A stretch of 64,000 nucleotides of DNA from Burkholderia sp. D-99 (GTDB lineage Bacteria > Pseudomonadota > Gammaproteobacteria > Burkholderiales > Burkholderiaceae). The DNA lies in contig NZ_JAAOXM010000002.1 of the NCBI RefSeq assembly GCF_011605345.1, forward strand, positions 620,001-684,000, written 5' to 3'. This document shows positions 4,551 to 36,163 of this stretch, in pieces. Position numbers and translations under genes: made by a program. Positions within the stretch are counted from its first letter, which is position 1; each line of letters begins with the position of its first letter. A model generated the notes under the pieces. The model did not search any database and was not told the origin of the DNA. It saw only the letters and a program-made list of their open reading frames with translations.

Positions 4551-5627
4551 TCAGAACCGCATGAACCCGTCGCGCGCGAGATCGTACGGATTGCCGGCCA
4601 CGTAGTCGAGCGCGCACGTATCGGTATCGATGCCGACGGTAAGCAGCGTTTCCCAGCGCTCGGTGTCGGGCATCGACAGGTCCGGATGGAAACACACAAT
4701 GGCCTGGTCGCCGGCCGCACCGCACATCGCCGCCGCGCGCTCGCGCACGTCGGCGCTCGTCATGCCTGCCACGACCTCGTTCAGGTGCGCGAAGCGTTCG
4801 CGCGTGGTCGAGCTGTCGGGCATGCATTCGCCGCCGCTCAACGCACGATCGAGGAAGTGGTTCGTATGCAGCAGCCAGCCGTCCGGACGCGGCACGACCA
4901 CGCCGATACCGGACGGGCTCAGCTCGATGCTCGCCGCGCGCGGGTTCGCGTCATGCCGTGTGAACACGGTCAGCACCGTCGATGCGCTCACGCGCGCGGT
5001 GCGCGCGAGTTCGATCGCCTCCTGCACCGTCGTCGCATCTTCGAGCAGGCGCCGCGCGATCGCGTGCACGGGCACGCCGGCGCTGTCGTTGTCGCTCGCG
5101 TGATGCAGGATGTTGAAGTGCAGCCCGAGCCCCGCGCCGTTCACACCGAGCTTCGCCAGCATCCCGAACTCGGAGAACAGCTTGACGGTGCGGCCGTGCG
5201 GCGTCGCGAACTGCATCAGCAGCCCCTGCGGCGCGAGGCTGTCGTGCCAGTCCCACGTCTGCAGCGTGCGCGGCGCGTGCGGGCCGGCCGGCGCGTAAAC
5301 GGTCGTCGAGCACTCGCCTTCGGCCGATGCGGGCGCGGTCGCGAGGATCTCGGTGCGCGCGTTCAGGCACGCGAGCTGCCAGCGCGGCAAGTCGACGCCG
5401 TCGGCGATCGCCTCGACTTCGGCGGCGAGGCGCGGGCACCACGCCCCGAGCGCGGCCAGGCTCGCTTCGCCGATCTCCCGCGCACGCTGCGGCTCGATGC
5501 CGAGCTTCGAGAAGAACGCGAGGTAAAGCGCGACCGTCTCGCGAATCTCCGGCGCGAAGCGCGCGCCGATCAGGCGGCCGCGCTCGCGCGGATCGGTGAG
5601 GTCGGTCACGAAGGTGTGCAGCTTCAA
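4551..5627 (-). CDS. C45-family autoproteolytic acyltransferase/hydrolase
   Basis: A 358-residue N-terminal-nucleophile hydrolase of the acyl-CoA:6-aminopenicillanate acyltransferase (AAT) type. Members cut themselves just before a Cys, which becomes the nucleophile for amide hydrolysis or acyl transfer. That Cys is C106, in AEGECSTTVYAP. Downstream motifs match the family: QTWDWHDS, GLGLHFNILHH and LLHTNHFL. The start is TTG at 5625-5627, chosen because an AGGAG box lies 8 nt upstream and no ATG fits. It lies downstream of the DUF3138 porin and the PotF-like binding protein, so its substrate may be an acylated amine or polyamine (inferred). Confidence 0.82.
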   Translation of the reverse strand: MKLHTFVTDLTDPRERGRLIGARFAPEIRETVALYLAFFSKLGIEPQRAREIGEASLAALGAWCPRLAAEVEAIADGVDLPRWQLACLNARTEILATAPASAEGECSTTVYAPAGPHAPRTLQTWDWHDSLAPQGLLMQFATPHGRTVKLFSEFGMLAKLGVNGAGLGLHFNILHHASDNDSAGVPVHAIARRLLEDATTVQEAIELARTARVSASTVLTVFTRHDANPRAASIELSPSGIGVVVPRPDGWLLHTNHFLDRALSGGECMPDSSTTRERFAHLNEVVAGMTSADVRERAAAMCGAAGDQAIVCFHPDLSMPDTERWETLLTVGIDTDTCALDYVAGNPYDLARDGFMRF

Positions 5628-19773: not shown

Positions 19774-19826
19774 GGTTCTTCGCAGATTACGGGGAGAGGG
19801 TTGGGCAGCCTGGCAGCCCTTCGGTC

Positions 19827-20092
19827 GGTGTTCGGTGTTCGGTGTTCGGTGTTCGGTGTTCGGTGTTCGGTGTTCGGTGTTCGGTGTTCGGTGTTCGGCG
19901 TTCGGCGTTCGGCGTTCGGCGTTCGGCGTTCGGCGTTCGGCGTTCGGCGTTCGGCGTTCGGCGTTCGGCGTTCGGCGGTCGGCGGTCGGCGTTCGGCGTT
20001 CGGCGTTCTACGTTCGGCGTTCTGCGTTCTGCGTTCTGCGTTCTGCGTTCTGCGTTCTGCGTTCTGCGTTCTGCGTTCTGCGTTCTGCGTTC
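19827..20092. repeat. Heptanucleotide tandem array, 38 units
   Basis: Exactly 38 tandem 7-bp units. In order they are 10 GGTGTTC, 11 GGCGTTC, 2 GGCGGTC, 3 GGCGTTC, 1 TACGTTC, 1 GGCGTTC and 10 TGCGTTC. Because 7 is not a multiple of 3, every frame stays open through it and encodes a repeating heptapeptide, so long reading frames here are artefacts. It lies between the aldehyde dehydrogenase terminator and the 3' end of the convergent patatin gene. The block order points to successive slipped-strand expansions. Unit number is likely to vary between strains. Confidence 0.97.
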
Positions 20093-23494: not shown

Positions 23495-23722
23495 GGTTAT
23501 TTAGGCGGTTGTTCGGGTGGTTGTTCGGGTGGTTGTTCGGGTGGTTGTTCAGGTGGTTGTTTGCGTGGTTGTTTGGGCGGTTGTTCGAGCTGTTGTTCGA
23601 GCTGTTGTTCGAGCTGTTGTTCGAGCCGTTGTTCGAGCCGTTGTTCGAGCCGTTGTTCGAGCCGTTGTTCGAGCCGTTGTTCGAGCCGTTGTTCGAGCCG
23701 TTGTTCAGGCCGTTGTTCAGGC
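23495..23722. repeat. 12-bp tandem array, 19 units
   Basis: Nineteen 12-bp units with consensus near CGTTGTTCGAGC. The first units are GGTTGTTCGGGT-like, the middle ones end GAGCTG or GAGCCG, and the last two carry TTCAGGC. The intact aldehyde dehydrogenase gene has GGCCGTTCAGGCCGTTG at the equivalent place between stop and terminator, which looks like the seed of this expansion. As 12 is a multiple of 3, frames through it encode tetrapeptide repeats, but no start or gene supports translation. Confidence 0.95.
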
Positions 23723-23728
23723 CGCTAA

Positions 23729-23761
23729 CGGCACCATGTCTCACGCACGGTGCCGTTTTTT
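23729..23761 (+). terminator. Terminator duplicated from the aldehyde dehydrogenase gene
   Basis: The CGGCACC / GGTGCCG stem with loop ATGTCTCACGCAC and six T residues closely matches the terminator at 19738-19773 (GGCACC, GTGTCTCGTGCAC, GGTGCCG). It is the distal end of the duplicated 3' region and may now serve motB. Confidence 0.85.
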
Positions 23762-23770
23762 CTGCGCACT

Positions 23771-23794
23771 CGATATATTCCGTAGAATATATCG
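23771..23794. promoter_or_regulatory. ModE-like palindrome upstream of the 189-aa protein
   Basis: A perfect 10-bp inverted repeat, CGATATATTC-cgta-GAATATATCG, ends 25 bp before the start codon at 23820. Its 10-4-10 layout and CGnTATAT halves resemble the E. coli ModE operator, whose left half as I recall it is CGTTATATTG. Related sites occur at 24434, 34082 and 35745. A lone ModE-type protein is encoded at 25965. Binding is inferred. Confidence 0.65.
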
Positions 23795-23819
23795 ATACCT
23801 GCACTTCCGGAGATTCACC

Positions 23820-24389
23820 ATGCCCCGTACGCCGACGGATCGCGCCTCGCAGCGCGTCGCACGGGAACAGCCGCTCGCGCGCAAGATCAGCGCGCTCAGG
23901 CCGCTGTCGAGCGACGCGCGCGCGCAGCAGGTCACGGATGTCGTCGACGCGTTCCGGCGCCTGCGCGGCAGCGTCGTACGCTTCATCCGGATGTTCTCGG
24001 CCACGCACGCTGAAGCCGCGCCGGACGATGCGCTGTCCGCAATGGGCTTTCGCGAATTGCTGTCAACGCTCGAAGACGACGCACGCACCGCCCGCTTCAC
24101 GCGCCTGCCCGAACTTGAACGGGCGATCGGCCACGCGCGCCGACTCGAACGCACACGTGACGACGTGTTCTCCGATTCGTTCAGCAACGACCCGGCCGCG
24201 ATGCGCGACGCGGTCGCCGCGCTGGAGCGCGTCGACGTGCTGTTCGTCGGGCTGTGCGTCGAGTACGTGATGGAGCGGCACGCACCGGCATCGCTCCCCG
24301 TTTCGCCCGCGGCGCCGGCGTCCGCATCCGCGTCCGCATCGGCATCGGCCGCACTACCGCGCACCGACCGCTCGACCGCGCTCTGCTGA
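23820..24389 (+). CDS. Uncharacterised 189-aa protein under a ModE-like box
   Basis: I do not recognise the family. It is a mostly helical soluble protein: residues 40-75 (QQVTDVVDAFRRLRGSVVRFIRMF) and 85-150 form several amphipathic helices. The C-terminal 30 residues are an Ala/Ser-rich tail that looks disordered. There is no signal peptide. The start is the ATG at 23820, directly behind a perfect palindrome. The DUF2325 gene follows 120 bp downstream with a related box, so the two are probably co-regulated. Confidence 0.7.
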   Translation: MPRTPTDRASQRVAREQPLARKISALRPLSSDARAQQVTDVVDAFRRLRGSVVRFIRMFSATHAEAAPDDALSAMGFRELLSTLEDDARTARFTRLPELERAIGHARRLERTRDDVFSDSFSNDPAAMRDAVAALERVDVLFVGLCVEYVMERHAPASLPVSPAAPASASASASASAALPRTDRSTALC

Positions 24390-24433
24390 CCGCGCCACGC
24401 CGCGTTACTCCCTGATTTCCCCGGAATTTCTCG

Positions 24434-24457
24434 CGTTATATTCCGTGGTATATTTCG
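24434..24457. promoter_or_regulatory. ModE-like palindrome upstream of the DUF2325 gene
   Basis: CGTTATATTC-cgtg-GTATATTTCG lies 52 bp before the DUF2325 start. The left half agrees at nine of ten positions with the left half of the E. coli modA operator as I recall it (CGTTATATTG). It differs from the perfect site at 23771 by one change in the left half and two in the right. Confidence 0.6.
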
Positions 24458-24509
24458 CGAATCTTTCGCGCATCCGTCCCCGGCTCGACCACGCCGGACA
24501 GAGGTCAAC

Positions 24510-25856
24510 ATGCACGCTCCGCCCTTTCGCCTTGCCCGCACGGCGGATCTCTCGTCGCCCGGCGGTAATCTGCCTGCGGCAACCGGCACGCGGGTCGACG
24601 CATGCTGCGCGCCGTCGCGCGCGCAACTGACCGAGCTGAAGCGCCGCACGCGCCTGTCCGAGCTCGATGCGAACCTGCACTGCTCGATCATCGGCACCTG
24701 CCTGACCACGCACGAACTACGCAGGCTCGTGCCGAAATTCACCGACCTCGACCGCCAGCACGCAACCGACCTCGACATCCATCACGCTGCCGTCGAGCTC
24801 GCGATCGACGGCACGGCCGGCGCCAAGGCATTGCACAAGGCGCTCGACGAGCGTTACGCCGGCGCGATCCGCGCATTCGACAGCGCACAGGACGCGGATG
24901 ACCTCCTCGCGCGCTGGAAGGAAGCGCTGAAGAGCGGCGACATCCCGCCGGCCTACTGGGCGCTGATGACGCATCCGCGCACGACGATGGTCGTGCGCCA
25001 GGCTGCGTTCGGCGACCTGCACATGCTGTCGCACCTGGTCGGCGCGGCCAATCGCGCCGATATCCGTCGGCTGGTCGCGCTGGAAGAGGAGAATGCGGCG
25101 CTGCACGCGAAGATCGACCGGCAGCAGGCGCGCCTGCAAGAAATGAGCGCGCAGCGCGACGCGGCGCTGCAGGAACGGGATGCCCTCGCCGCGCGCCAGA
25201 ACGCGCAGCCGCTGGCGGCTGAAAGCGTCTTGCGCGACGAAGTCCACGAACTGCGCGAAGCGCTGGCCGTGCGCGACGAACGACTCGCACTGCACACGAG
25301 CCGCCGCGAGGCGGCCGAGCAGCGGATCGCCGCGGAACAGGCGAGCGCCCGCGCGATGCGCGCGCGGCTCGACGACCTGATGGCGATGGTGAAGACGCTG
25401 CGCGCCGAAGCGAGCGCGATCGAACAGGCGGTGCAGGCGTCGGCGGACGATCCTGCCGAACACGCGGCCGATCCGCTGTCGATCCTTCAGGGCATGCGTC
25501 TGGTGTACGTCGGCGGGCGCCCGGGCTCGAACCGCGCGATCAGGCGGATCGTCGAAGCGGCGGGCGGTGACGTGACGCTGCACGACGGCGGCATCGAGGA
25601 TCGCAAGGGCCTGCTGGCCGCTGCGCTACCGGGCGCGCACATGGTCGTGTTCCCGGTCGACTGTATCGACCACGATTCGATGAACCTGCTCAAGCGCATC
25701 TGCGAACGCCACCACATCGCGTACTACCCGCTGCGGACTGCCAGCGTCGCCAGCTTCGTCGAACTGATCGGGCGGCTCGATGCGCAGGCACGCGATGTCA
25801 TGGCGCCGGATGCCGCCGCGGGCGGCACGCCGCGCTTCTGCCTGCGGCACGGCTAG
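24510..25856 (+). CDS. DUF2325 coiled-coil protein
   Basis: A 448-residue protein in three parts. Residues 30-175 are an uncharacterised helical region (LHCSIIGTCLTTHELRRLVPKF). Residues 185-320 are a long coiled coil (LVALEEENAALHAKIDRQQARLQEM and following heptads). The last 110 residues are a DUF2325 domain, with MRLVYVGGRPGSNRAIRRIVEAAGGDVTLHDGGIED and the conserved DCIDHDSMNLLKRIC. DUF2325 domains have no established activity. AGAGGTCAAC precedes the ATG. The ModE-like box upstream and the ModE-type gene nearby suggest a link to molybdenum or a similar oxyanion (inferred). Confidence 0.78.
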   Translation: MHAPPFRLARTADLSSPGGNLPAATGTRVDACCAPSRAQLTELKRRTRLSELDANLHCSIIGTCLTTHELRRLVPKFTDLDRQHATDLDIHHAAVELAIDGTAGAKALHKALDERYAGAIRAFDSAQDADDLLARWKEALKSGDIPPAYWALMTHPRTTMVVRQAAFGDLHMLSHLVGAANRADIRRLVALEEENAALHAKIDRQQARLQEMSAQRDAALQERDALAARQNAQPLAAESVLRDEVHELREALAVRDERLALHTSRREAAEQRIAAEQASARAMRARLDDLMAMVKTLRAEASAIEQAVQASADDPAEHAADPLSILQGMRLVYVGGRPGSNRAIRRIVEAAGGDVTLHDGGIEDRKGLLAAALPGAHMVVFPVDCIDHDSMNLLKRICERHHIAYYPLRTASVASFVELIGRLDAQARDVMAPDAAAGGTPRFCLRHG

Positions 25857-25964
25857 GGCCCAATTCGCTTCGACGCGTTCTTTACGCACGGCCCTTCAGC
25901 AGGCCAGTGCAAGCCCGTCGTCAGCAAGAGCAGGCCACGGGCAAGCGTTCGCGCAGCCCCCCTT

Positions 25965-26330
25965 TCAGCGCCGCACCATTTTCGTCAGCGCGGCGATTTC
26001 GTCGGCGCACGCCGCGTAGGCACGCGCCTCGATCCCGCGATAGAGACGGATGATCTCCTCGCCGACCGGCGTGAGCACGCTGCCGCCGCCGCTCTGCCCG
26101 CCATGCTCGGACACCGTCGCCGGCGATTTCAGCGAGCGGTTCAGTTCGTCCATCAGCAACCACGCACGCCGGTACGACATCTTCAGGCTGCGCGCCGCCG
26201 CCGAAATCGAACCGTGCTCGCGCACGGCTTCGAGCAGCGCGACCTTGCCCGGGCCGAGCGCGATCGTGTCGGCCTGCTGGATCCGCATCCTGAACCGCAC
26301 CTCAGGCTTGGGGTGTGCCGGTGTCTTCAT
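25965..26330 (-). CDS. Lone ModE-type winged-helix DNA-binding protein
   Basis: A 121-residue protein equal to the N-terminal DNA-binding domain of ModE: ALGPGKVALLEAVREHGSISAAARSLKMSYRRAWLLMDELNRSL, then a Gly/Ser-rich wing (SEHGGQSGGGSVLTPVGEEIIRLYRGIE). The molybdate-binding TOBE/Mop half is absent and there is no frameshift, so it is a natural single-domain form. AGGACAAC precedes the ATG at 26328-26330. It lies downstream of the molybdopterin-fold gene on the same strand. ModE-like palindromes at 23771 and 24434 are likely targets. Confidence 0.85.
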   Translation of the reverse strand: MKTPAHPKPEVRFRMRIQQADTIALGPGKVALLEAVREHGSISAAARSLKMSYRRAWLLMDELNRSLKSPATVSEHGGQSGGGSVLTPVGEEIIRLYRGIEARAYAACADEIAALTKMVRR

Positions 26331-26408
26331 GTTGTCCTGCCCTTTGAACGATGCGGGCAAGCATACACGATGGCCGGTCCGACGCATGCCGGCCGCCTGC
26401 GCGCCCGT

Positions 26409-26909
26409 TCAAACCTCGAGCACGCGCGCGACGATGCCGGCCAGCCGCTTCACGTGGCGCGGCGCGGGCAGGAGGTCGGCGCCGGAGAACAACAGCGGCG
26501 CGCCGTCGTCGATCGACAGCGGCGCGTCGCCGCATTCGAACGCGACGATCACGTGTTCGCCGATGGGCGTATTGAACAGTTCATGCCAGGAAAACGTGAC
26601 CGCGTAGCCGTCGTGCGCATGTGCGATGAACACCATGCGCTTGAAGTCGCCCGGTGCGTCGTTGCGCAGCCCGGCCGCGTCGAGCAGGTCCTTCAGCCGC
26701 GCGCCGCGATACGGCGCGACCGAGCGGATGAAGCGGTTCGTCGTGAAGCAGCGCAGGTCGAACGGCTCGGCCGTCGCGCTCGCATGCCGGCGCAGATCAT
26801 CGAGCGTCACCGTCATCGGCCGCACGAATGCGCCCGTCAGCGCGATCGAGCCTGCCGCCGCCTGATGCTCCTGTTGCGCCGAAGGCGCCGCCGTCCCTGC
26901 CATCTCCAT
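26409..26909 (-). CDS. Small molybdopterin-binding-fold protein
   Basis: A 166-residue protein with the sulfite-oxidase/YedY-type molybdopterin fold in reduced form: VRPMTVTLDDLRRHASATAEPFDLRCFTTNRFIRSVAPYRGARLKDLLDAAGL, then a Gly/Ala-rich end (RHVKRLAGIVARVLEV). The Cys in DLRCFTTN sits near the place of the family's molybdenum-ligating Cys. No Tat signal or haem domain is present. Its role may be binding rather than catalysis. GGAGGCGGGCG precedes the ATG at 26907-26909. The lone ModE gene follows 78 bp downstream, so the two are probably one transcript. Confidence 0.75.
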   Translation of the reverse strand: MEMAGTAAPSAQQEHQAAAGSIALTGAFVRPMTVTLDDLRRHASATAEPFDLRCFTTNRFIRSVAPYRGARLKDLLDAAGLRNDAPGDFKRMVFIAHAHDGYAVTFSWHELFNTPIGEHVIVAFECGDAPLSIDDGAPLLFSGADLLPAPRHVKRLAGIVARVLEV

Positions 26910-26955
26910 CGCCCGCCTCCATGACGGCCCGCCGGTGGGCGTGCCTGCGCTGTAT

Positions 26956-26974
26956 CGGCGGATATATTACGCCG
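26956..26974. promoter_or_regulatory. Dyad upstream of the molybdopterin-fold gene
   Basis: CGGCG-GATATATTA-CGCCG lies about 47 bp before the start codon. The centre shares GATATATT with the ModE-like boxes, but the arms differ, so it may be a diverged site or another operator. Confidence 0.35.
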
Positions 26975-27049
26975 GGAAAAGCCTGGCCGGCAGAATGCGC
27001 GCCGCATGGGCGGCATAACGGCGGCCGATCGTGCCCCCGCCGCCCGGCG

Positions 27050-27817
27050 CTACGCCAGCACGATGTTCTTGATGGCTTTCTTCAGGCTCTTGAAGCTGTC
27101 GACCGATTCCGCCTTGGCGTCCGTCACCAGTGCGCCGATCCGCGCCGGCTCGCAGAAGCTGATCCGGCTGTTCGTGCCGAGCTTGCTGAAATCGGCCAGG
27201 ATCGCGACGTCCGCCGCGTTGCTCACCATCGCGCGCGCCACTTCGGTTTCCATCCGGTCGTAGTTGGTCGCGCCGCGGACGGCATCGACGCCCACCGGCG
27301 ACAGCAGCGCGAGGTCGGCGCGATAGCGGAAGATTTCGGCGACCGTGCCGTCGCCGACGGTCGCGGCCGCGCGGCTGCCGATCATCCCGCCGAGCAGGAT
27401 CGTCTCGTTCCTCGCCTGCCCCGGATCGCCCGACCGCATCTTCAGCGCGACGTCGATCGAGTTCGTGACGATCGTGAGGCCCGACAGCTTCGCCAGTTCT
27501 TCGGCCAGCAGTGTCGTGGTCGTGCCCGCGTCGATGAACAGCGTCTGCGAGCCCGTGACCAGCCTGGCCGCCGCCCGGGCGATCGCCAGCTTCGCCTTCA
27601 CGTGGGTCTGCGCGCGCTCGGCGATCGGCGCTTCGTCGCCCACCTGCACCGCGCCCCCGTGCACGCGCTTCAGTTCACCGAGCGCTTCGAGATCGACGAG
27701 ATCGCGACGCACGGTTTCCCGCGACACGTTCAGGTCGGCCATGATCCGGTCGGTGGAAACGCGCTGCATCTTCGATAACAGAAGCCGGATCCTCTGGTAT
27801 CGCTCTTCTTGCCACAT
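27050..27817 (-). CDS. DeoR-family transcriptional regulator
   Basis: A 255-residue DeoR/GlpR-type repressor. The N-terminal helix-turn-helix is RYQRIRLLLSKMQRVSTDRIMADLNVSRETVRRDLVDLEALGELKRVHGGAV. The DeoR sensor domain follows with FIDAGTTTTLLAEEL (phosphosugar-binding loop), VTNSIDVALKM and LLGGMI. Such proteins usually respond to a phosphorylated sugar or polyol. It begins 43 bp after MgtC on the same strand, so both may be transcribed together. No sugar operon adjoins, so the target is unknown. Confidence 0.9.
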   Translation of the reverse strand: MWQEERYQRIRLLLSKMQRVSTDRIMADLNVSRETVRRDLVDLEALGELKRVHGGAVQVGDEAPIAERAQTHVKAKLAIARAAARLVTGSQTLFIDAGTTTTLLAEELAKLSGLTIVTNSIDVALKMRSGDPGQARNETILLGGMIGSRAAATVGDGTVAEIFRYRADLALLSPVGVDAVRGATNYDRMETEVARAMVSNAADVAILADFSKLGTNSRISFCEPARIGALVTDAKAESVDSFKSLKKAIKNIVLA

Positions 27818-27860
27818 GGAATGTCCTCGGAGTGAACGTCAATATTATTCGAACGACGAA

Positions 27861-28541
27861 CTACGCAGCGCTCTCCTCCATCTTTTTGACGCCGACGAGG
27901 GTCTGCAGGGATTGACGCACCGCCTGGACCTCGCTGCTCGTCATCTTTGAAAACACCACGTGGATGCGGTCGTCGTCCGGCGCGGCATCGTCCTGTTCGA
28001 TGATGAACTGGACGATGCGCGCCTGGTCGATGCCGGGCATCGCCTGCAGCGACGTCAGCTTCACAGCGCCGCGGCTCGCGAGGATGCGCACGCCCCAGCG
28101 CTGCCGTGCGGCGAAGAAACGCTTCTCGATCGGCTTCAGGCCGGCCAGGATCGCGAGCACGATCGCCGTCGCGGCAATCGCGGCCACGTACATGCCGCCG
28201 CCCACCGCCAACCCGACCGCCGCCACGACCCACAGGCTCGCCGCGGTCGTCAGGCCGCGGATGATCTCGCCGCGCAGCATGATCGAACCGGCGCCGAGGA
28301 AGCCGATGCCCGACACCACCTGCGCGGCGACGCGCGACGGGTCCAGCGACACGTTCTTCGCGTTCTGGATATCCGCGAAGCCGAACGCCGACACGACCAT
28401 CACAAGCGCGGCGCCCACGGCCACCAGCATGTGGGTGCGCAATCCCGCCGCCCACGACAGGCGTTCGCGCTCGATGCCCACGATGCTGCCGAGCAATGCC
28501 GCCAGCAACAGGCGGGACACGATTTCCAGCTGACTGATCAT
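27861..28541 (-). CDS. MgtC/SapB-family membrane protein
   Basis: A 226-residue inner-membrane protein. Five hydrophobic helices fill the first 145 residues, with the family motifs LLGSIVGIERERLSWAAGLRTHMLVAVGAAL and VSGIGFLGAGSIMLRGEIIRGLTTAASLW. The C-terminal 80 residues form a soluble, ACT-like domain. MgtC proteins support growth in low magnesium and survival in macrophages, in part by acting on the ATP synthase. AAGGAGA precedes the ATG at 28539-28541. The DeoR regulator follows. Confidence 0.9.
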   Translation of the reverse strand: MISQLEIVSRLLLAALLGSIVGIERERLSWAAGLRTHMLVAVGAALVMVVSAFGFADIQNAKNVSLDPSRVAAQVVSGIGFLGAGSIMLRGEIIRGLTTAASLWVVAAVGLAVGGGMYVAAIAATAIVLAILAGLKPIEKRFFAARQRWGVRILASRGAVKLTSLQAMPGIDQARIVQFIIEQDDAAPDDDRIHVVFSKMTSSEVQAVRQSLQTLVGVKKMEESAA

Positions 28542-28809
28542 TCGAGGTCTCCTTGCTATGCCTGGTCCACCTGATGAAGCGCGGCCCGCACGGGCCACCA
28601 CCCGATTCTTCCTGCCTTCATCCGCCGGAAACCGCATCCGGCTTCCGGCGAGTTGTATTTTTGTGCGATCTTGCGATTTTGTGCGTTCTAATATACGGTA
28701 CGAAAAACTACAAAGCCAGACCCAAGTTCGTTTGTTTCATCCGATCAGCACGATCAATCGTCAGACCATTCAGGCAACACGATCCGGAACACTTGCTTAG
28801 GAGACCCAC

Positions 28810-29754
28810 ATGATGAAGAAGGCATGGATGCTGGCAGCAACGCTGCTGGCGGCGCTGGCGACGGCCCCCGCTCACGCATCGGAAGGCGACGTCTGTAAAA
28901 AGGTGACGCTCGGCGATGTCGGCTGGAGCGACATCGCGGCCACCACCGGCGTCGCGATGATGCTGCTCGACGGGCTCGGCTACGAGGCGACCAAGACGAT
29001 CGCGTCGCCGCCGATCGTGCTGGCCGGCGTGAAGAAGGCGCAGATCGACGCGTTCCTCGGCTACTGGGATCCGAGCATGACGCCGACGGTGAAGCCGTTC
29101 GTGGACGCCGGCGCCGTGCATCAATTACCGCAGCCCAACCTGGTCGGCGCGCGCTACACGCTGGCCGTGCCGCAATACGTGTCGGACAAGGGGCTCAAGA
29201 GCTTCGCCGATATCGCCAGATTCCGCGACCAGCTCGACGGCAAGATCTACGGGATCGGCGCCGGCAACAACGGCAACGCGCTGATCCAGCGGATGATCGA
29301 CAGGAACGAGTTCGGGCTCGGCGGCTTCAAGCTGGTCGAATCGAGCGAGGCCGGGATGCTCGTACAGGTGACGCGCGCCGTGCAGGAGCACCGGATGATC
29401 GTGTTCCTGGCGTGGGAGCCGCATCCGATGAACATCAACTACAAGATCGCCTATCTCGACGGCGGCGACACCGTGTTCGGCCCGAACTACGGCTCGGCGA
29501 AGGTCTACACGCTCGTCACGCCCGGCTATCTCGAACGCTGCCCGAACGTCGGCCGGCTGCTGACCAACCTGAAGTTCACGACTGACGAAGAGAACCAGCT
29601 GATGGTGCCGATCATGAATCACGCGGACCCGGTCGCGGTTGCCAGGGAATGGGCGAAGAAGCATCCCGGCGAGCTGTCGAAGTGGCTCGACGGCGTGACG
29701 ACCATCGATGGAAAGAACGCGAAAGACGCGATCGAGAAGCTGATCGGCGCGTAA
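28810..29754 (+). CDS. Choline/betaine-type ABC substrate-binding protein
   Basis: A 314-residue periplasmic binding protein of the glycine-betaine/choline (OpuAC/ChoX) type. A signal peptide ends near residue 23 (APAHA-SEG). Ligand-box features include GDVGWSDIAATTGVAMMLLDGLGYE, DAFLGYWDPSMTPTVKPF and VFLAWEPHPMN, whose aromatic residues cage quaternary ammonium groups. GGAG lies 6 nt before the first of two ATGs. No permease or ATPase gene is beside it. A HAD phosphatase and phospholipase C follow on the same strand, which supports choline as ligand. Confidence 0.87.
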   Translation: MMKKAWMLAATLLAALATAPAHASEGDVCKKVTLGDVGWSDIAATTGVAMMLLDGLGYEATKTIASPPIVLAGVKKAQIDAFLGYWDPSMTPTVKPFVDAGAVHQLPQPNLVGARYTLAVPQYVSDKGLKSFADIARFRDQLDGKIYGIGAGNNGNALIQRMIDRNEFGLGGFKLVESSEAGMLVQVTRAVQEHRMIVFLAWEPHPMNINYKIAYLDGGDTVFGPNYGSAKVYTLVTPGYLERCPNVGRLLTNLKFTTDEENQLMVPIMNHADPVAVAREWAKKHPGELSKWLDGVTTIDGKNAKDAIEKLIGA

Positions 29755-29777
29755 GCCCGCAAGACAAGGAACCCCGC

Positions 29778-30458
29778 ATGTACAAGAATCTCGCGCTGTT
29801 CGATCTCGACCACACGCTGCTGCCGCTCGACAGCGACCAGGCCTGGGCCCGCTTCATCTCGCGGGTCGGCTGGCGCGAGGACGACGCGCACGCCGCGCTG
29901 ATCGACGAGCACTACGGTCATTACGCGGCCGGCACGCTCGACATGAACGCGTATCTCGCGGTGACGCTCGCACCGCTCACCCGCTATCCGCGCGAGGTGC
30001 TCGAACGCTGGCATGCGCGGTTCATGGACGAAGTGATCCGTCCGGCGATTACGCCGCAAGCGCGCGAACTGGTCGACCGGCATCGCGAAAACGGCGATCT
30101 CTGCTGCATCGTGACGGCGACCAACGTGTTCGTCACGCGGCCGATCGCGGCCGAATTCGGCATAGAGCACCTGCTCGGTATCGAACTCGATACCGACGAC
30201 GGCACGCCGGGCGGCGCGTTTACCGGGCGCAGCACCGGCGTGCCGAGCTTCCGCGAAGGGAAGATCGTGCGCACGACCGCATGGCTGGAGTCGCTCGGCT
30301 ACGCTCCGGTCGATTTCGAACGCACCTACTTCTACAGCGATTCGATCAACGACGTGCCGCTGCTGGACTACGTCACACATCCGGTCGCAACCAATCCCGA
30401 CTCGAAGCTGTTGCAAGTGGCAGGCACGCGCGGGTGGCCTGTCATGAAGTTGTTCTGA
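29778..30458 (+). CDS. HAD-IB phosphatase, possibly for phosphocholine
   Basis: A 226-residue haloacid-dehalogenase-superfamily phosphatase of the SerB-like IB type. Motif I is LFDLDHTLLPLDSD with catalytic D9 and D11. Motif II is IVTATNVFVT, and motif IV is YFYSDSINDVPLLDYV. There is no signal peptide. It begins 24 bp after the choline-type binding protein and precedes phospholipase C, which releases phosphocholine. Dephosphorylation of phosphocholine to choline is the simplest role, but phosphoserine or another small phosphoester cannot be excluded. Confidence 0.83.
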   Translation: MYKNLALFDLDHTLLPLDSDQAWARFISRVGWREDDAHAALIDEHYGHYAAGTLDMNAYLAVTLAPLTRYPREVLERWHARFMDEVIRPAITPQARELVDRHRENGDLCCIVTATNVFVTRPIAAEFGIEHLLGIELDTDDGTPGGAFTGRSTGVPSFREGKIVRTTAWLESLGYAPVDFERTYFYSDSINDVPLLDYVTHPVATNPDSKLLQVAGTRGWPVMKLF

Positions 30459-30503
30459 TTCGGGCGATATTCTCTGCTGTCCATTTTCATGTCTGGAGGG
30501 GTA

Positions 30504-30764
30504 ATGAAATACGGAGCACGCAGCAACAATCTCGATCGTTCAGGAATCCGATTCGAATCGGATAGAAAGCATGTCGTCAGGTCGCGCCCGCCGGAAAGCC
30601 GTTTTCCGCACTGGCGCGGCGTTTTCATGATCGCACTGATGTGCACGCTGGCCGCTTGCGGCGATGGCGACTCGGGCACCGCGGCCAACGTGGCGGCCGC
30701 GCGCGCGGCCGCACCGGGTTCGGCGTCCACGCCCGTCCTGCACTGCGCGAGCGCGTGCCACTGA
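30504..30764 (+). CDS. Possible small lipoprotein overlapping the phospholipase start
   Basis: An 86-residue reading frame with a good GGAGGGGTA box 5 nt before its ATG. A hydrophobic run ending in a lipobox is visible (MIALMCTLAACGDGDSG, residues 42-58), but it is preceded by 41 polar, Arg-rich residues, long for a signal peptide; an inner ATG at 30627 would give a 45-residue lipoprotein. Its stop overlaps the likely GTG start of phospholipase C. It may be a real small lipoprotein, a leader peptide for translational coupling, or chance. Confidence 0.45.
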   Translation: MKYGARSNNLDRSGIRFESDRKHVVRSRPPESRFPHWRGVFMIALMCTLAACGDGDSGTAANVAAARAAAPGSASTPVLHCASACH

Positions 30765-33259
30765 CCGACTCAGGCCCCAGGGCCAGCCATCCACGACAGA
30801 GAGCGATCATTCAAAACAAACCCACAACACGACGCCAGTTCCTCGCCGATGCATTGAAGCTCGCCGGTGCGACCGCGATCACGGGCATGCTGCCCGAAAG
30901 CATCGCGCGCGCCCAGGCCATTCCGGCGGCCACCGTGACCGGCACGATCCAGGACGTGAAGCACGTCGTGATCCTGATGCAGGAAAACCGCTCGTTCGAC
31001 CACTACCTCGGCACGCTCGGCGGCGCCCGCGGCTTCGGCGATCCGCGGCCGGTGGTGATTTCGAGCGGGTATCCGGTGTGGCGCCAGCCCTGGCTGTTGT
31101 CCTACGTGTTTCCGTTCAACCCGTCCCCGCCCTCCGGCATGGCGAACGGCGACACCTACTACGGCGACCTGGACCACAGCTGGACCGGCACGCACAGCGC
31201 CTGGAACAACGGCCGCTACGACAACTGGGCCGACGCGAAGACCAGCGGCACGATGTACTACTTCACGCAGAAAGACATCCCGTTCTACTACGCACTGGCG
31301 AGCGCCTTCACGGTGTGCGACGACTACCACTGCTCGATGCTCGGCCCGACCGACCCGAACCGGCTGTATCTGTGGACCGGGTGCTGCGGCAACGTGCCGG
31401 GCTATTCGCCGTACACGGACAACACGATGACCGGCACCGGCTGGACGACCTTGCCGGAACGGCTGAACGCGGCCGGCGTCACGTGGAAGTTCTACCAGGA
31501 CAAAGGCAACGGCCTGGATGCCGGCCACGCGTACGGCAATTCCAACAGCGCCGGCAGCACGCTCTGGTGGAACGGGAACTACGGCGACAACATCGTTCTC
31601 AACTTCAAGCAGTACCAGAACCTCGGCGCCAACGATCCGCTGGCGCCCGCGATCAACGGCACGCAGATCGACCCGAGCGGCGGCGGCAAGGAATACGACA
31701 CGAACCTGTTCAGCCAGCTGCAGGCCGACGTCGCGAACGACACCTTGCCGCAAGTGTCGTGGATTGCCGCGCCTTACGCGTACTGCGAGCATCCGTCGTG
31801 GGCCGCGAGCGGCGGCGAATGGTACGTGAGCAACGTGCTGAATGCGCTGACCTCGAATCCGAAGGTCTGGGCGAGCACCGTCCTGCTCGTGATGTACGAC
31901 GAGAACGACGGCCTGTTCGATCACGTCCCGCCCGCCGTCCCGGCCAGCTCCGCGGCCGGCACCGGCCAGTCGACCGTCTCGACGGCCGCGGAATTCGTCG
32001 CCAGCAGCGGCAGCGCATCGGATGGTTCGGCCAGCGGCGACGTGCCGATCGGGCTCGGGCCGCGCGTGCCGATGTTCGTGATCTCGCCGTGGTCGAAGGG
32101 CGGCAAGGTGAATTCGCAGGTGTTCGATCACACGTCGGTGGTCCGCTTCCTGGAGGCGCGCTTCGGGTTTCAGGAAACCAATATCTCGCCGTGGCGGCGC
32201 GCGGTCTGCGGCGACCTGACGTCGGCCTTCGATTTCTCGAACGCCGACCAGACCGTTCCCGCGATCCAGCCGCCGGCGAGCAACATGAACCCGAACGGCC
32301 CGGCCGTCCTGATCCCCTACCCGACCACCACCGCGGTGCCGGCGCAGACGGCCGGCCGCAGCACCGCCTGCCGCCTGCCCTACGAGTTCTTCGTGCAAGG
32401 CAAGGTCAACCGCGCCGGCAACGCGCTGTCGCTGACGATGACCAACACCGGCACCGCCGGCGTACACCTGCAGGCGTGGGTCGACGGCACGGGCACGATC
32501 CCCCGGCATTACACGATCGCGGCCGGCGCGAGCCCGTGCGCGAACCTGTCGGATTCGCTCGCGCTGAATGCCGGCGGCAGCTACGACTATTCCGTCTACG
32601 GCCCGAACGGCTTCCTGCAGACGTTCCGCGGCAGCGTCGGTTCGTCCGGCAACAGGGGATCGACCGCCGAAATCAGCCTGTGCTACGACGTGGCCAACGG
32701 CAACGTGCAGATCACGCTCGACAACTCCGCCGGCGCCGGCGCGACGACGTTCCAGCTCACCGACAACGCATACGGAATGAACACGCGGCAGTCGGTCACC
32801 GTCGCCGCCGGCGCGACGCAAGCCGTCACGTGGTACGGCGACGGCGGCTGGTACGACGCCAGCATCCGCGATGCGAACGATCCGAACTTCCTGCGCCGGG
32901 TGGCCGGCTGCGTGCAGACGCAATCCGGCCTCCTGCTCACGGATTCGGCGATCGGCAATACCGGCAAGAAGTTCGTCGCGTCGCTCGCTTCGCAGGGCTC
33001 GACGTTCGGCACGCTGCGGTTCGACTACGTCGCGCCGCCGTGGAGCCACAGCCCGAAGAACTGGGTGGGCATCTTTGCGCATGGCGCGCAGCCGACCAAG
33101 GGCAGCTACAAGTCGTGGGCGTACCTGCCGAAGAGCACCGGCTCGCTGCTGTTCTCGTCCACGGCCAACAGCACGCTGGCGTCGGGGCAGTACGACGCGT
33201 GGTATCTGTTCGACGACGGCTACACGCCGCTCGCGGGCCCCGTCACGATCAACATCTGA
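30755..33259 (+). CDS. Phospholipase C, phosphocholine-specific, Tat-exported
   Basis: About 834 residues. A twin-arginine signal is plain: TTRRQFLADALKLAGATAITG ending near ARAQA. The phosphoesterase domain starts with TIQDVKHVVILMQENRSFDHYLGTLGGARGFGD and includes VCDDYHCSMLGPTDPNR and MYDENDGLFDHVPP. Two DUF756-type beta domains follow (about residues 550-830), as in Burkholderia and Pseudomonas PlcN/PlcH. It cleaves phosphatidylcholine to diacylglycerol and phosphocholine. No ATG precedes the Tat signal in frame, so I used the GTG at 30755. The true start is uncertain. Confidence 0.88.
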   Translation: MPLTDSGPRASHPRQRAIIQNKPTTRRQFLADALKLAGATAITGMLPESIARAQAIPAATVTGTIQDVKHVVILMQENRSFDHYLGTLGGARGFGDPRPVVISSGYPVWRQPWLLSYVFPFNPSPPSGMANGDTYYGDLDHSWTGTHSAWNNGRYDNWADAKTSGTMYYFTQKDIPFYYALASAFTVCDDYHCSMLGPTDPNRLYLWTGCCGNVPGYSPYTDNTMTGTGWTTLPERLNAAGVTWKFYQDKGNGLDAGHAYGNSNSAGSTLWWNGNYGDNIVLNFKQYQNLGANDPLAPAINGTQIDPSGGGKEYDTNLFSQLQADVANDTLPQVSWIAAPYAYCEHPSWAASGGEWYVSNVLNALTSNPKVWASTVLLVMYDENDGLFDHVPPAVPASSAAGTGQSTVSTAAEFVASSGSASDGSASGDVPIGLGPRVPMFVISPWSKGGKVNSQVFDHTSVVRFLEARFGFQETNISPWRRAVCGDLTSAFDFSNADQTVPAIQPPASNMNPNGPAVLIPYPTTTAVPAQTAGRSTACRLPYEFFVQGKVNRAGNALSLTMTNTGTAGVHLQAWVDGTGTIPRHYTIAAGASPCANLSDSLALNAGGSYDYSVYGPNGFLQTFRGSVGSSGNRGSTAEISLCYDVANGNVQITLDNSAGAGATTFQLTDNAYGMNTRQSVTVAAGATQAVTWYGDGGWYDASIRDANDPNFLRRVAGCVQTQSGLLLTDSAIGNTGKKFVASLASQGSTFGTLRFDYVAPPWSHSPKNWVGIFAHGAQPTKGSYKSWAYLPKSTGSLLFSSTANSTLASGQYDAWYLFDDGYTPLAGPVTINI

Positions 33260-33302
33260 CGGCAGGGCCAGACCGCGCCGGCCGCCTGTATGGGGCCGGC
33301 AC

Positions 33303-33339
33303 GCATTCGGGCGCGACGTGCCACGTTGCGCCCGAATGC
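33303..33339. terminator. Long near-perfect hairpin between convergent genes
   Basis: An 18-bp stem with one G-T wobble (GCATTCGGGCGCGACGTG / CACGTTGCGCCCGAATGC) and almost no loop lies between the convergent phospholipase C and M24 peptidase genes. It lacks a T tract but probably acts as a bidirectional terminator or cruciform. Confidence 0.65.
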
Positions 33340-33370
33340 ATTTCCAGCCGCGCTACACGCGCGACAGACG

Positions 33371-34030
33371 CTACACGAGCAGATCCTCGTAGAACGCGCC
33401 GAACGGCCGTGTCGGATGCGCGATCTGGATTTCGAGGATCCACAGCCCGGCCGCCGGCGCGGCATCGAAGTCGCCGAGATTGCCGGCCTTGTAGATCGCA
33501 TGCGGAAAATCGCTGACGCGGTGCCCCTTGATGTCGACGTTCAGCCGGAAGCCGTGCGCGTCGGCGCGTTGCGCGGCGAATTCGTACAGCGCGATGCCCG
33601 CGCAGCCGGTGGTGCGCCAGTGATGCTCGACTTCGTCGTAGATCACGCGCGCCGCGTGCGCACACGCATGCATGTCCGGATCGTCGCCGCACACGAACGT
33701 CGCACCCGCGTCGCCCTCATGCTTCGACCACACCGCGCCCAGGTCGATGAAGAAGATGTCGTCGTCGGCGAGCACCGGGTCTGCCACCGAGCGCTCCTTG
33801 AACGTGCGCAGCGTGTTTTCCCCGAAGCGGACCAGCACCGGATGCCAGATCCGGTCCATCCCGAGCGCCTGCAGCACGCTCAGCCCCAGCGCGTTGGCCT
33901 CCGATTCCCGCATGCCGGGCCGGATGCCGTCGGCGATCGCGTCGACGGCCTGCCATGTCATGGTTCTTGCGTGCTGCATCGCGTCGAGCGAAAAGGCTTC
34001 GCCGACGGCTTCGCGTTGCGTCGAGTTCAA
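33371..34030 (-). CDS. M24-family metallopeptidase-like protein
   Basis: A 219-residue protein of the pita-bread fold (methionine/Xaa-Pro aminopeptidase). The five metal ligands appear conserved: D96 (FIDLGAVW), D107 (HEGDAGATF), H170 (KGHRVSDFPH), E200 (WILEIQIAH) and E215 near the end. It is shorter than Xaa-Pro peptidases, with no N-terminal domain. I chose the TTG at 34028-34030 because GGGAG lies 7 nt upstream; a GTG at 34066 would add 12 residues. A ModE-like palindrome lies 52-75 bp upstream. The substrate is unknown. Confidence 0.8.
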   Translation of the reverse strand: MNSTQREAVGEAFSLDAMQHARTMTWQAVDAIADGIRPGMRESEANALGLSVLQALGMDRIWHPVLVRFGENTLRTFKERSVADPVLADDDIFFIDLGAVWSKHEGDAGATFVCGDDPDMHACAHAARVIYDEVEHHWRTTGCAGIALYEFAAQRADAHGFRLNVDIKGHRVSDFPHAIYKAGNLGDFDAAPAAGLWILEIQIAHPTRPFGAFYEDLLV

Positions 34031-34081
34031 GATGGGGCTCCCGTGAGGGTGAATGTGGGGCGACACGATCGACCGTCGCTT

Positions 34082-34105
34082 CGATATGCATGATCGAATA
34101 TATCG
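34082..34105. promoter_or_regulatory. ModE-like palindrome upstream of the M24 gene
   Basis: CGATATGCAT-gatc-GAATATATCG. The right half is identical to the perfect site at 23771 and the left keeps CGATAT. It sits in the promoter position of the M24 peptidase gene, 52 bp before the TTG. Confidence 0.5.
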
Positions 34106-34152
34106 CTTTCCGGGCCGACGCGTTGCCGGGTCATCGTGTCGCCCACAGCAAA

Positions 34153-34177
34153 ACGGGCACTCCGATGGAGTGCCCGT
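34153..34177 (-). terminator. Terminator of the porin gene
   Basis: A perfect 11-bp stem (ACGGGCACTCC / GGAGTGCCCGT) with a 3-nt loop lies 75 bp after the porin stop. On the porin strand it is followed by TTTTGC, a short T run typical of porin terminators in this group. Confidence 0.8.
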
Positions 34178-34251
34178 TGTCGCGCCGGCTCAGGTTCCGG
34201 ACGTCGCGACGGGTGCTGCCGGCTTCGACAACGCCCGCCTTCCTTCGTCGA

Positions 34252-35415
34252 TCAGAACTTGTGACGCAGGCCGATCCGCGTGACGAGCTGCGTGTTCGCG
34301 CCCGCGTTGCCGATGAACGACCCCGACGAGCCGATCTCTGCCTGTACCGGCACCGCGCGGCCGCCCATCGTGTTGCTGCCCGACGCCTTCTGGTAAGCCG
34401 CGCTCACATAGACGTCCGTGCGCTTCGACAGCGCATAGTCGACCGCGGCGTTGACCTGGTGCCATTTGCCGTCGAAGCGGCCGTCGAGCTTCGAGAACGT
34501 ATAGCCGAGCCCACCGCTCAGGGCCGGCGTGAACGCGTAGCGGCCGCCGATTTCGTAGTTGTTCAGCTTCGACGATTCGCCCGACAGCGGCACGAACTTC
34601 GTATGCGTCCAGTTCGCCCACACGAGGGCCGCCGAGATCGCATAGCGCGCGCCGACGCCGACCGTCTCGAGATCGCGCAGCCCCTGCGTGTTGATGTTCG
34701 CGATGCTCACGCCGAACGCGGGCGTCGCGCCGTTCGGGAAGCGGATGTTCGTGTACGCGGCACCGATGCCGAACGGCCCCTGCGCATAGTTCGCGCCGAA
34801 GCTGTACGCGCTCGACGAACCCTGCGAGCCGTTCGCGCCGGTCGTGGTCGGCGTACCTGCGAACTGCGTCGAGTTCGAGAAGCCGTACATCGCGCCGAAC
34901 GTGAGGCCCGCAAAGTTCGCGCTCTGGAACTTCACGGCGTTGTTGATGCGGCTCGACGTCAGCTGGTCGAGATCGTTGATGTGATACGCGTAGTTGCCGG
35001 CCGGCGTCTGGCTGCCCATCGTGTAGTTCGCGCCGATGTAGTCGGTCGAGAACGAGTACTGGCGGCCGAACGTCAGCGAGCCGATCCCGTTCTTCGACAG
35101 CCCGACGAACGCCTGCCGGCCGAACAGCGCACCGCCCTGGCCGATCGAGCCGTCACCGCTGCTGAAGCCGTTTTCCAGCACGAACAGCGCCTTCAGCCCG
35201 CCGCCGAGATCCTCGGTCCCGCGAATGCCCCAGCGGCTGCCCGAAGCAACGCCGTCACCGTACTTGACGAGCTTGCCGTGCCCGCCCGACGTCGCGACCT
35301 TGTTCGAATACGTGATACCCGCATCGATCAGCCCGTAGAGCGTGACGCTGCTTTGCGCGTGCGCGGCGGTGCCGAACATCCCGAGTGCGGCCGCGGCCAC
35401 GATGGTCTTTTTCAT
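34252..35415 (-). CDS. Trimeric outer-membrane porin, OmpC-like
   Basis: A 387-residue Gram-negative porin. A signal peptide ends at residue 20 (GTAAHA-QSS). The mature N-terminus SVTLYGLIDAGITYSNK, the SRWGIRGTEDLGGGLKALFVLENGF strand pair and the GRQAFVGLSKNGIGSLTFGRQY segment are characteristic of Burkholderia porins. Loop 3, the pore constriction, follows, and the chain ends in the Bam signal LRHKF. It makes a general diffusion channel. AAAGGAAGGGAAC precedes the ATG. A ModE-like palindrome lies 330 bp upstream, perhaps too far to act on this gene. Confidence 0.92.
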   Translation of the reverse strand: MKKTIVAAAALGMFGTAAHAQSSVTLYGLIDAGITYSNKVATSGGHGKLVKYGDGVASGSRWGIRGTEDLGGGLKALFVLENGFSSGDGSIGQGGALFGRQAFVGLSKNGIGSLTFGRQYSFSTDYIGANYTMGSQTPAGNYAYHINDLDQLTSSRINNAVKFQSANFAGLTFGAMYGFSNSTQFAGTPTTTGANGSQGSSSAYSFGANYAQGPFGIGAAYTNIRFPNGATPAFGVSIANINTQGLRDLETVGVGARYAISAALVWANWTHTKFVPLSGESSKLNNYEIGGRYAFTPALSGGLGYTFSKLDGRFDGKWHQVNAAVDYALSKRTDVYVSAAYQKASGSNTMGGRAVPVQAEIGSSGSFIGNAGANTQLVTRIGLRHKF

Positions 35416-36163
35416 GTTCCCTTCCTTTTGTTGTTGACGCGCGCGCCTGTGTCGCAGCGTGACGCGCGGCGTGTTGACGACGAACCGACTGATGAACGAG
35501 CGCAAGCCACAGGATCGCCGCACGCACGCCTGCCTCATGCGCGTGCACGATGTTCCGTTTCGATGCCTGTGTGGGCTTGCTGAAGCGGCATGCCGCGGGG
35601 CGGCCGCTCGTGTTGCAGCGCCGGCAAGCGTGCGCACCGATTGCGCATGCCGCGACGACGCGTTGCTCCGGCGATGCAGGTCAGAATCTCTTCCGGCTTT
35701 CGTGGAGCGGGTGGCGACGTGGCGCCTGACGACGCCACGACCTTCGATATATTTTTCGAAATATATCGAGTTGTCACGAAACGGTAAACATTTATTCGGG
35801 TTCCTGTCGTCTTTCATCCACATGCGGACGACGGTCGACTGGATCGAAGTCGCGACGTACGACGGCCGGCATCGCACCGATGCCGGCGACGGGCCATCGC
35901 CGAAATCCAGCATAATCGGGCGGTTGAACAGGCGTCGTAGCCGGCGTGCGAATCCCGCACACGTTTGCGTCGCCGTCCGGTTCACGGCTTGCCCGCGTTC
36001 CGCCGTTACGGAAGGAGCCAGTCTGTGCCGGTCTCGCGCGCGCTGGATTGTGCCGGGGCAAAAAATCGAAGCAAGCACAAACGCGATGCGGCGCACCTCA
36101 CGACGCCGCCGATCGCATCACGGACCACACCACGCCATCCCGCAGAAGACAGGACACCGACAC
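35416..36163. other. 748-bp gene-free region between porin and acetyltransferase
   Basis: No reading frame here has convincing support. It probably holds the porin promoter and leader, and that of the acetyltransferase. The notable element is the perfect palindrome at 35745. A GCCGGCATCG / CGATGCCGGC hairpin lies near 35866-35889. Confidence 0.5.
35745..35768. promoter_or_regulatory. Perfect ModE-like palindrome in the porin upstream region
   Basis: CGATATATTT-ttcg-AAATATATCG is a fully self-complementary 24-bp site with the same layout as 23771. It is 330 bp before the porin start and 396 bp before the acetyltransferase start, followed by AT-rich DNA that could be a promoter. The target gene is uncertain. 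Confidence 0.55.

Follow-up and report, generated by a model that had tools for sequence, protein, structure and literature searches.

The 64,000-nucleotide stretch of Burkholderia sp. D-99 analysed here (contig NZ_JAAOXM010000002.1, positions 620,001 to 684,000; the window) carries, within 12 kb, five 24-bp palindromes that resemble the operator of ModE and lie around a gene for a lone ModE DNA-binding domain and a gene for a DUF2325 protein (Table 1). This finding is real, widely conserved in the Burkholderiaceae and larger than first described. We consider it probable that these sites belong to a molybdenum-limitation regulon under ModE-type repression, in which the lone ModE would be the binder, sensing would be split between two proteins and the role would fall outside nitrogen fixation.

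A sequence-only reading of this DNA had placed four palindromes in the window, two of them perfect, and all four were recovered as described. The layout CGnTATAT/ATATnnCG, said to be common to them, holds for three, but the site at 34082, with its left arm CGATATGC, fits it by one half only. When mismatches were counted against the search pattern CGNTATATN8ATATANCG, seven matches with up to three mismatches were found in the window, against a mean of 0.28 and a maximum of 3 in 100 shuffles. Among these matches was a fifth site (26948-26971), which would put an operator-like sequence ahead of a molybdopterin-fold (Moco-fold) gene and the lone ModE gene, and so ahead of the regulator's own presumed operon; the remaining two (24422 and 39463) have three mismatches each. 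The neighbours assigned to the sites were correct for the 189-aa, DUF2325 and M24 genes, but not settled for the porin gene: since this gene lies 329 bp to one side of 35745-35768 and a GNAT gene 396 bp to the other, the target of this site is ambiguous.

In the 8.7-Mb genome the pattern occurs at eight places with at most two mismatches, five of them within these 12 kb, and the three places with no more than one mismatch are all in the window; the reversed pattern, at the same mismatch limit, occurs at five places. The chance of finding five of eight places in one given 12-kb segment is about 3e-13, before allowing for some 725 such windows. The palindrome is not common throughout the genome regardless of gene context. 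Elsewhere, the motif stands directly before modA (C1:1589031; 202 bits for modA against a cut-off of 62.5) in a modABC-modE locus, so that a site precedes molybdate transport genes of the same genome, and before a stand-alone di-Mop gene (C17:22583), while a match at C12:450296 (10.2 bits) was taken as due to chance. The predicted regulon thus keeps the four sites first described and extends to the fifth, to modA and to the di-Mop and nifQ genes on C17. With the pattern loosened to allow variable spacing, the genome count of 20 places was matched by 19 for the control, so that information comes from the full motif alone.

The E. coli ModE consensus is given as ATCGNTATATA-N6-TATATANCGAT in PMC545781, and in another form in PMC2700814. 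The half-sites CGNTATAT and the 24-bp span agree with the E. coli consensus, and the sites match CGNTATATA-N6-TATATANCG, with the same spacing, except at the innermost arm base, which varies in the motif and is T in both perfect sites; apart from this base, the likeness to the E. coli operator noted in the sequence-only reading stands. Because of this match, of the same motif before modA and of the conserved association of the site with DUF2325 described below, the assignment of the sites as predicted ModE-type operators, and with it a molybdate-type regulon, is supported. That they belong to an unrelated regulator family and resemble ModE sites by chance is highly improbable in view of the half-sites and their spacing, the positions before modA, WtpA-like and di-Mop genes, and the conservation beside the lone ModE. 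The palindromes themselves as products of chance are ruled out by the window shuffles, the clustering in the genome and the conservation upstream of genes in relatives.

Conservation was scored with a matrix built from six sites of this genome, applied at a threshold of at least 19.5 bits to windows of up to 400 bp upstream of genes. The loci compared (L148-L227) are the best 80 of at least 348 confirmed by a DUF2325 scan; they are related to one another, and their genes were called with a home-made script. A site precedes DUF2325 in 76 of the 80 relatives when the start is taken from tblastn and in 73 when it is taken from the called gene; at 19.5 bits none was found upstream of DUF2325 in L204, L207, L216 and L224. 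Matrices with permuted columns gave a mean of 0.015 and a maximum of 1 in 80. The searches of the genome and of its relatives both support a predicted regulon: sites cluster in the window and recur before DUF2325. Upstream sites were likewise found for 60 of 63 called copies of the 189-aa family (a relative of which is present in 62 of the 80 loci), 45 of 46 Moco-fold copies, 43 of 44 genes for WtpA-like binding proteins, 18 of 25 di-Mop, 12 of 16 porin, 4 of 4 M24 and 1 of 4 GNAT copies; in L096, L097 and L099 the site lies 81-88 bp before the porin gene. No site was found upstream of the 63 genes for permease-ATPase fusions of the ATP-binding cassette (ABC) type, and 59 of 884 other genes had one, many of them sharing a promoter region with cluster genes. 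The 80 loci, of which that of Paraburkholderia xenovorans LB400 (L177) has four sites, contain 256 sites at or above the threshold, 8 of them inside called genes; in 60 further stretches (L076-L135), 9 of which have sequence in common with the 80 loci, the corresponding numbers are 128 and 4.

The gene arrangement is conserved as well. The lone ModE gene is adjacent and convergent to DUF2325 in 78 of the 80 relatives, and the commonest order (19/80) is DUF2325, lone ModE, NifQ and Moco-fold, followed by a divergent binding protein and ABC fusion. In L095 this binding protein is nearest to WtpA (104.9 bits against a cut-off of 355) and the fusion resembles ModB/WtpB plus an ATPase, all under the cut-offs. 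Of 299 genomes of the family, 84 encode a long DUF2325 and 130 a lone ModE (E at most 1e-20), with 81 encoding the two together; because of relatedness these counts are not independent. The long DUF2325 is a class of our own, comprising 84 of 91 matched genomes after G011, G068, G114, G126, G236, G273 and G280 were dropped as fragments or the short type. The three long-DUF2325 genomes without a lone ModE match (G167, G173 and G185) are fragmented, with a partial or broken DUF2325; they are small and share the genus label g10, a pattern as if the whole unit had been lost together.

Table 1. Predicted operators and genes of the cluster, in positions of the window
Feature	Position	Strand	Description
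Predicted ModE-type operator	23771..23794		CGATATATTCCGTAGAATATATCG; 0 mismatches; 31.4 bits; 25 bp before 189-aa gene
189-aa orphan	23820..24389	+	No Pfam or NCBIfam match at E 0.01
Predicted ModE-type operator	24434..24457		1 mismatch; 28.8 bits; 52 bp before DUF2325 gene
448-aa DUF2325 protein	24510..25856	+	Pfam PF10087, 52.2 bits (cut-off 33.6); likely coiled coil
Lone ModE DNA-binding domain, 121 aa	25965..26330	-	TIGR00637; no Mop domain
166-aa Oxidored_molyb-fold (Moco-fold) protein	26409..26909	-	Pfam PF00174, 42.2 bits (cut-off 24)
Predicted ModE-type operator	26948..26971		2 mismatches; 20.8 bits; 38 bp before Moco-fold gene preceding lone ModE
M24 metallopeptidase	33371..34066	-	Pfam PF00557, 57.1 bits
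Predicted ModE-type operator	34082..34105		2 mismatches; left arm CGATATGC; 24.4 bits; before M24 peptidase
Porin	34252..35415	-	Pfam PF13609, 189.7 bits
Predicted ModE-type operator	35745..35768		CGATATATTTTTCGAAATATATCG; 0 mismatches; 31.4 bits; between porin and GNAT genes

As the sequence-only reading had it, the lone ModE gene lies behind a molybdopterin-fold gene, presumably the first gene of an operon with it. The lone ModE scores 79.1 bits (E 2.1e-22) against TIGR00637, under the curated cut-off of 98.5; its best match among solved structures is 2ijl, followed by E. coli ModE (1b9m and 1o7l), with which it aligns. For the Moco-fold protein 45 copies were aligned, and C54, at the place where a molybdenum ligand would be expected, is retained in at least 93% of them. 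In profile searches of solved structures, no match below E 0.78 was obtained for the 189-aa family, and DUF2325 gave coiled-coil and weak matches (best E 0.0032). The DUF2325 protein is rich in cysteine and histidine, and C32, C33, C58, C64, H91, H92, H155, H171, H175, C385, H388 and C398 are invariant in 41 of 41 aligned copies. Two tandem arrays were also seen, one just upstream of the first operator (23508-23718; 17.6 copies of the 12-base unit GTTGTTCGAGCC) and one at 19825-20092 (38.3 copies of the 7-base unit TCGGCGT).

The regulator was said to lack the usual sensing domain, and the Pfam search indeed gave no TOBE/Mop match on its 121-aa chain; that it cannot sense molybdate, however, is not established, as the genome encodes a separate di-Mop protein with an operator of its own. 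This protein (C17:22001-22426) consists of two Mop/TOBE domains, has the motif 156 bp upstream and is followed on the same strand by NifQ (C17:21326-21925; 107.4 bits against a Pfam cut-off of 27); no transporter gene of the binding-protein/ABC fusion type was called adjoining it in this genome. The genome thus encodes both halves of a ModE, and a predicted operator of one and the same type lies close to either gene; for the lone ModE it is the 26948 site one gene upstream. A split ModE, composed of the lone ModE and the separate di-Mop protein, is a likely arrangement predicted from this gene content.

In the mechanism that we propose, dimers of the lone ModE would attach to the 24-bp palindromes and, as long as molybdenum suffices, would repress the genes for the 189-aa protein, DUF2325, the Moco-fold protein and the lone ModE itself (autoregulation), the M24 peptidase and the porin; the di-Mop and orphan nifQ genes on C17 would be repressed in the same way. 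The molybdate signal would most likely come from the di-Mop protein, and the targets may act in taking up, storing and moving molybdenum outside nitrogen fixation, where DUF2325 would be a Cys/His-rich partner of NifQ. Repression by ModE-type dimers under molybdenum sufficiency appears to us the likeliest mode of action: the distance from site to gene start is 25 bp for the 189-aa gene, 52 bp for DUF2325, 38 bp for the Moco-fold gene and, depending on the start chosen, 51 or 15 bp for the M24 gene, which suits repression. The MopA and MopB proteins of R. capsulatus provide an analogue for this model (PMC6925177).

An alternative input to sensing by the di-Mop protein is a conserved cysteine in the C-terminal helix of the lone ModE. 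This residue, C108, is found in 79 of the 80 relatives but not in the portions of 2ijl and 1b9m covered by the alignment. The lone ModE might then bind the sites and read a signal other than molybdate (for example Mo-Fe-S, iron-sulfur or redox) through this cysteine or through NifQ and DUF2325. The abundance of cysteine and histidine in DUF2325 would agree with such a signal, as would the control by PerR and RacRS of a 104-aa DUF2325 protein in C. jejuni (PMC9426514). We regard this as unlikely, as C108 is missing from some lone ModEs adjacent to DUF2325 (L105, L106 and L113) and the C17 di-Mop gene bears the same operator.

The association of the site with DUF2325 reaches beyond the Burkholderiaceae. 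Thirty-one plasmid records match DUF2325, 21 of them alphaproteobacterial, and 13 of the latter were examined for sites; the 15 records examined comprise 10 of 14 from Hyphomicrobiales, 3 of 7 from Azospirillum and two nif-type Paraburkholderia. In all 10 Hyphomicrobiales records, which include two near-identical pairs (L252/L260 and L261/L262), a site of at least 17 bits lies near the DUF2325 start, against 1 in 1500 randomised upstream stretches. These sites are within about 560 bp upstream of DUF2325, with a NUDIX gene in between in Shinella HZN7; in Aureimonas, sites flank an annotated DUF2325 start that is probably too early. The order on Methylorubrum extorquens pCMU01 is TOBE, modCBA, alcohol dehydrogenase, glp, a lone winged helix-turn-helix (wHTH) gene and DUF2325, and in Aureimonas a lone wHTH and DUF2325 are near modA, for which there is a separate site of 19.5 bits. 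Lone ModE-like proteins are also common on plasmids (252 records, 165 predicted conjugative and 102 from Salmonella), with identities of about 39-46% among the enterobacterial matches listed.

Because the genome of Burkholderia sp. D-99 has no PF00148 match at all, its NifQ as a mark of nitrogen fixation was ruled out. Of the 299 family genomes, 126 encode NifQ and 28 encode PF00148 proteins scoring over the cut-off; the NifQ genomes divide into 101 with no such match and 25 with one. The motif Cx4Cx2Cx5C, which we take to be the four-cysteine NifQ motif, was observed in nif-type copies. The fetched loci contain 65 copies of NifQ: three cysteines of the motif are kept in 59, all four in three and none in three. 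In G190, where PF00148 is not matched over the cut-off, a four-cysteine NifQ (L246:5190-5819) is encoded with a 28.3-bit ModE-type site just upstream (5099-5122). NifQ is described as handing molybdenum to NifEN/NifH (PMC6448029) and as having a role in the insertion of the MoFe3S4 cluster (PMC6159551). A tentative idea, to which we give a slim chance, is that NifQ and the long DUF2325 carry or assemble Mo-Fe-S species for a use other than nitrogenase in Burkholderiaceae that do not fix nitrogen, and that the lone ModE reads the state of this route via the di-Mop protein or loaded NifQ/DUF2325 instead of free molybdate.

The link to nitrogen-fixation clusters is real but partial. Of the 25 genomes with NifQ and PF00148, 8 (G055, G114, G126, G195, G201, G236, G260 and G273) have a short DUF2325 match no more than 1.5 kb from a nif-type nifQ. 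The annotated order in the nif cluster of P. aromaticivorans is nifQ, hypothetical, DUF2325, LLM oxidoreductase, modB, modA, ABC ATPase and TOBE. Fifteen nif-cluster stretches were compared (L229-L239, L244, L245, L247 and L248), six of them chosen for holding DUF2325; a site of 20-22 bits lies behind nifQ in six (L229, L230, L232, L235, L236 and L239), and L238 has one of 19.0 bits. In a number of nif clusters of Paraburkholderia and Burkholderia (L229-L239, L256 and L265), nifQ is followed by a globin-like or hypothetical gene, a short DUF2325, and then LLM and mod genes; the gene behind nifQ in L229 scores 20.7 bits for Bac_globin, just under the cut-off of 21.

Several observations weigh against a regulon governed by the lone ModE. 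Scanning 23650-24560 for sigma-70 promoters gave no hit. A site stands directly upstream of the lone ModE in only 2 of 80 loci and of nifQ in 2 of 46, so that their control rests on presumed operons, and the di-Mop gene is present in 25 of the 80 stretches and is on a separate contig in the genome of the window. The C-terminus of the NifQ encoded here (CPGCEDFGFC plus five residues) retains three of the four motif cysteines, the first being missing. Of the 15 nif-cluster stretches, DUF2325 is matched in six (L229-L234) and occurs together with a site in only three, and L256 and L265 contain DUF2325 without a site at 17 bits; nor was a site found at 17 bits in the three Azospirillum DUF2325 loci (28-30% identity). 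In addition, the genome encodes a full two-domain ModE (C1:1591504-1592337; 278 aa, two Mop domains), beside a modABC whose site has the same consensus, and 226 of the 299 family genomes match full-length ModE at E 1e-20, some of them through the di-Mop protein only. The main binder may therefore be a protein other than the lone ModE. The two-domain ModE could be the real regulator of the sites and the lone ModE a competitor, a helper or a leftover, as might also be read from the Hyphomicrobiales: only 2 of the 10 stretches (Methylorubrum and Aureimonas) hold a lone ModE, and the other eight have the site by DUF2325 without one.

We nevertheless judge this possibility rather unlikely, because five of the eight places in the genome cluster around the lone ModE and because five genomes (G183, G017, G053, G285 and G219) have kept the lone ModE together with a site scoring 24.9 bits or higher, while their sole match to full-length ModE (E 1.5e-31 to 1.6e-36) is only of the size given by the di-Mop proteins in their fetched stretches (111-129 bits). 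Judged by the size of the match, no full-length ModE is therefore seen in these five, a comparison in which G053 is 83% complete and helix-turn-helix (HTH) plus PBP_like regulators were not searched for. One such regulator, of 368 aa and the third ModE-like one in the genome, is encoded on C23 of the genome studied here (L146:6684-7790), and it and the full ModE might bind the same sites. By eye, its gene is divergent from genes resembling formate dehydrogenase; in the relatives L108 and L110 an HTH plus PBP_like gene is divergent from the lone ModE and shares one site with it. The genome also encodes a 71-aa single-Mop protein (C5:88413; L145:6393-6608), whose gene closes an operon resembling, by eye, one for sulfonate uptake; no ModE-type site of at least 15 bits was found in the 13-kb stretch around it.

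The system resembles the E. coli ModE/modABC regulon in the half-sites, their spacing and a predicted winged helix that aligns with 1b9m and 1o7l, but differs from it in a regulator without Mop domains and in targets that include DUF2325, the 189-aa orphan, NifQ, the M24 peptidase and the porin. Split and fused ModE architectures are reportedly already known from Zhang and Gladyshev. With the stand-alone ModE domains of Desulfovibrio and the solved chain 2ijl it shares the DNA-binding half alone; in Desulfovibrio (PMC545781), for which the sensing mechanism was called not clear, the consensus differs (CGGTCACG-N14-CGTGACCG), whereas here the E. coli-type site is retained and a di-Mop gene lies behind one such site. 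The C17 protein is, with its two Mop/TOBE domains, akin to stand-alone Mop and di-Mop proteins such as Rhodobacter capsulatus Mop (PMC6925177), but it precedes NifQ and sits behind a ModE-type site. The NifQ itself matches, over the cut-off, the Pfam family of the NifQ of nitrogen-fixing bacteria, but has three of the four motif cysteines and a host without PF00148. No link of DUF2325 to ModE or molybdenum was found in the searched literature, which leaves out most subscription papers; judged by this literature, the operator and the DNA-binding domain are known, and what would be new is the splitting of the regulator, together with an orphan NifQ and with DUF2325 and the 189-aa protein as effectors.

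In summary, DUF2325, a domain of unknown function, and the 189-aa orphan family gain a testable place in molybdenum homeostasis, and NifQ is often retained without nitrogenase. The system is also well suited to asking how a ModE DNA-binding domain that stands alone responds to metal. Furthermore, the same arrangement recurring in many relatives ties several uncharacterised proteins of the Burkholderiaceae to molybdenum handling.

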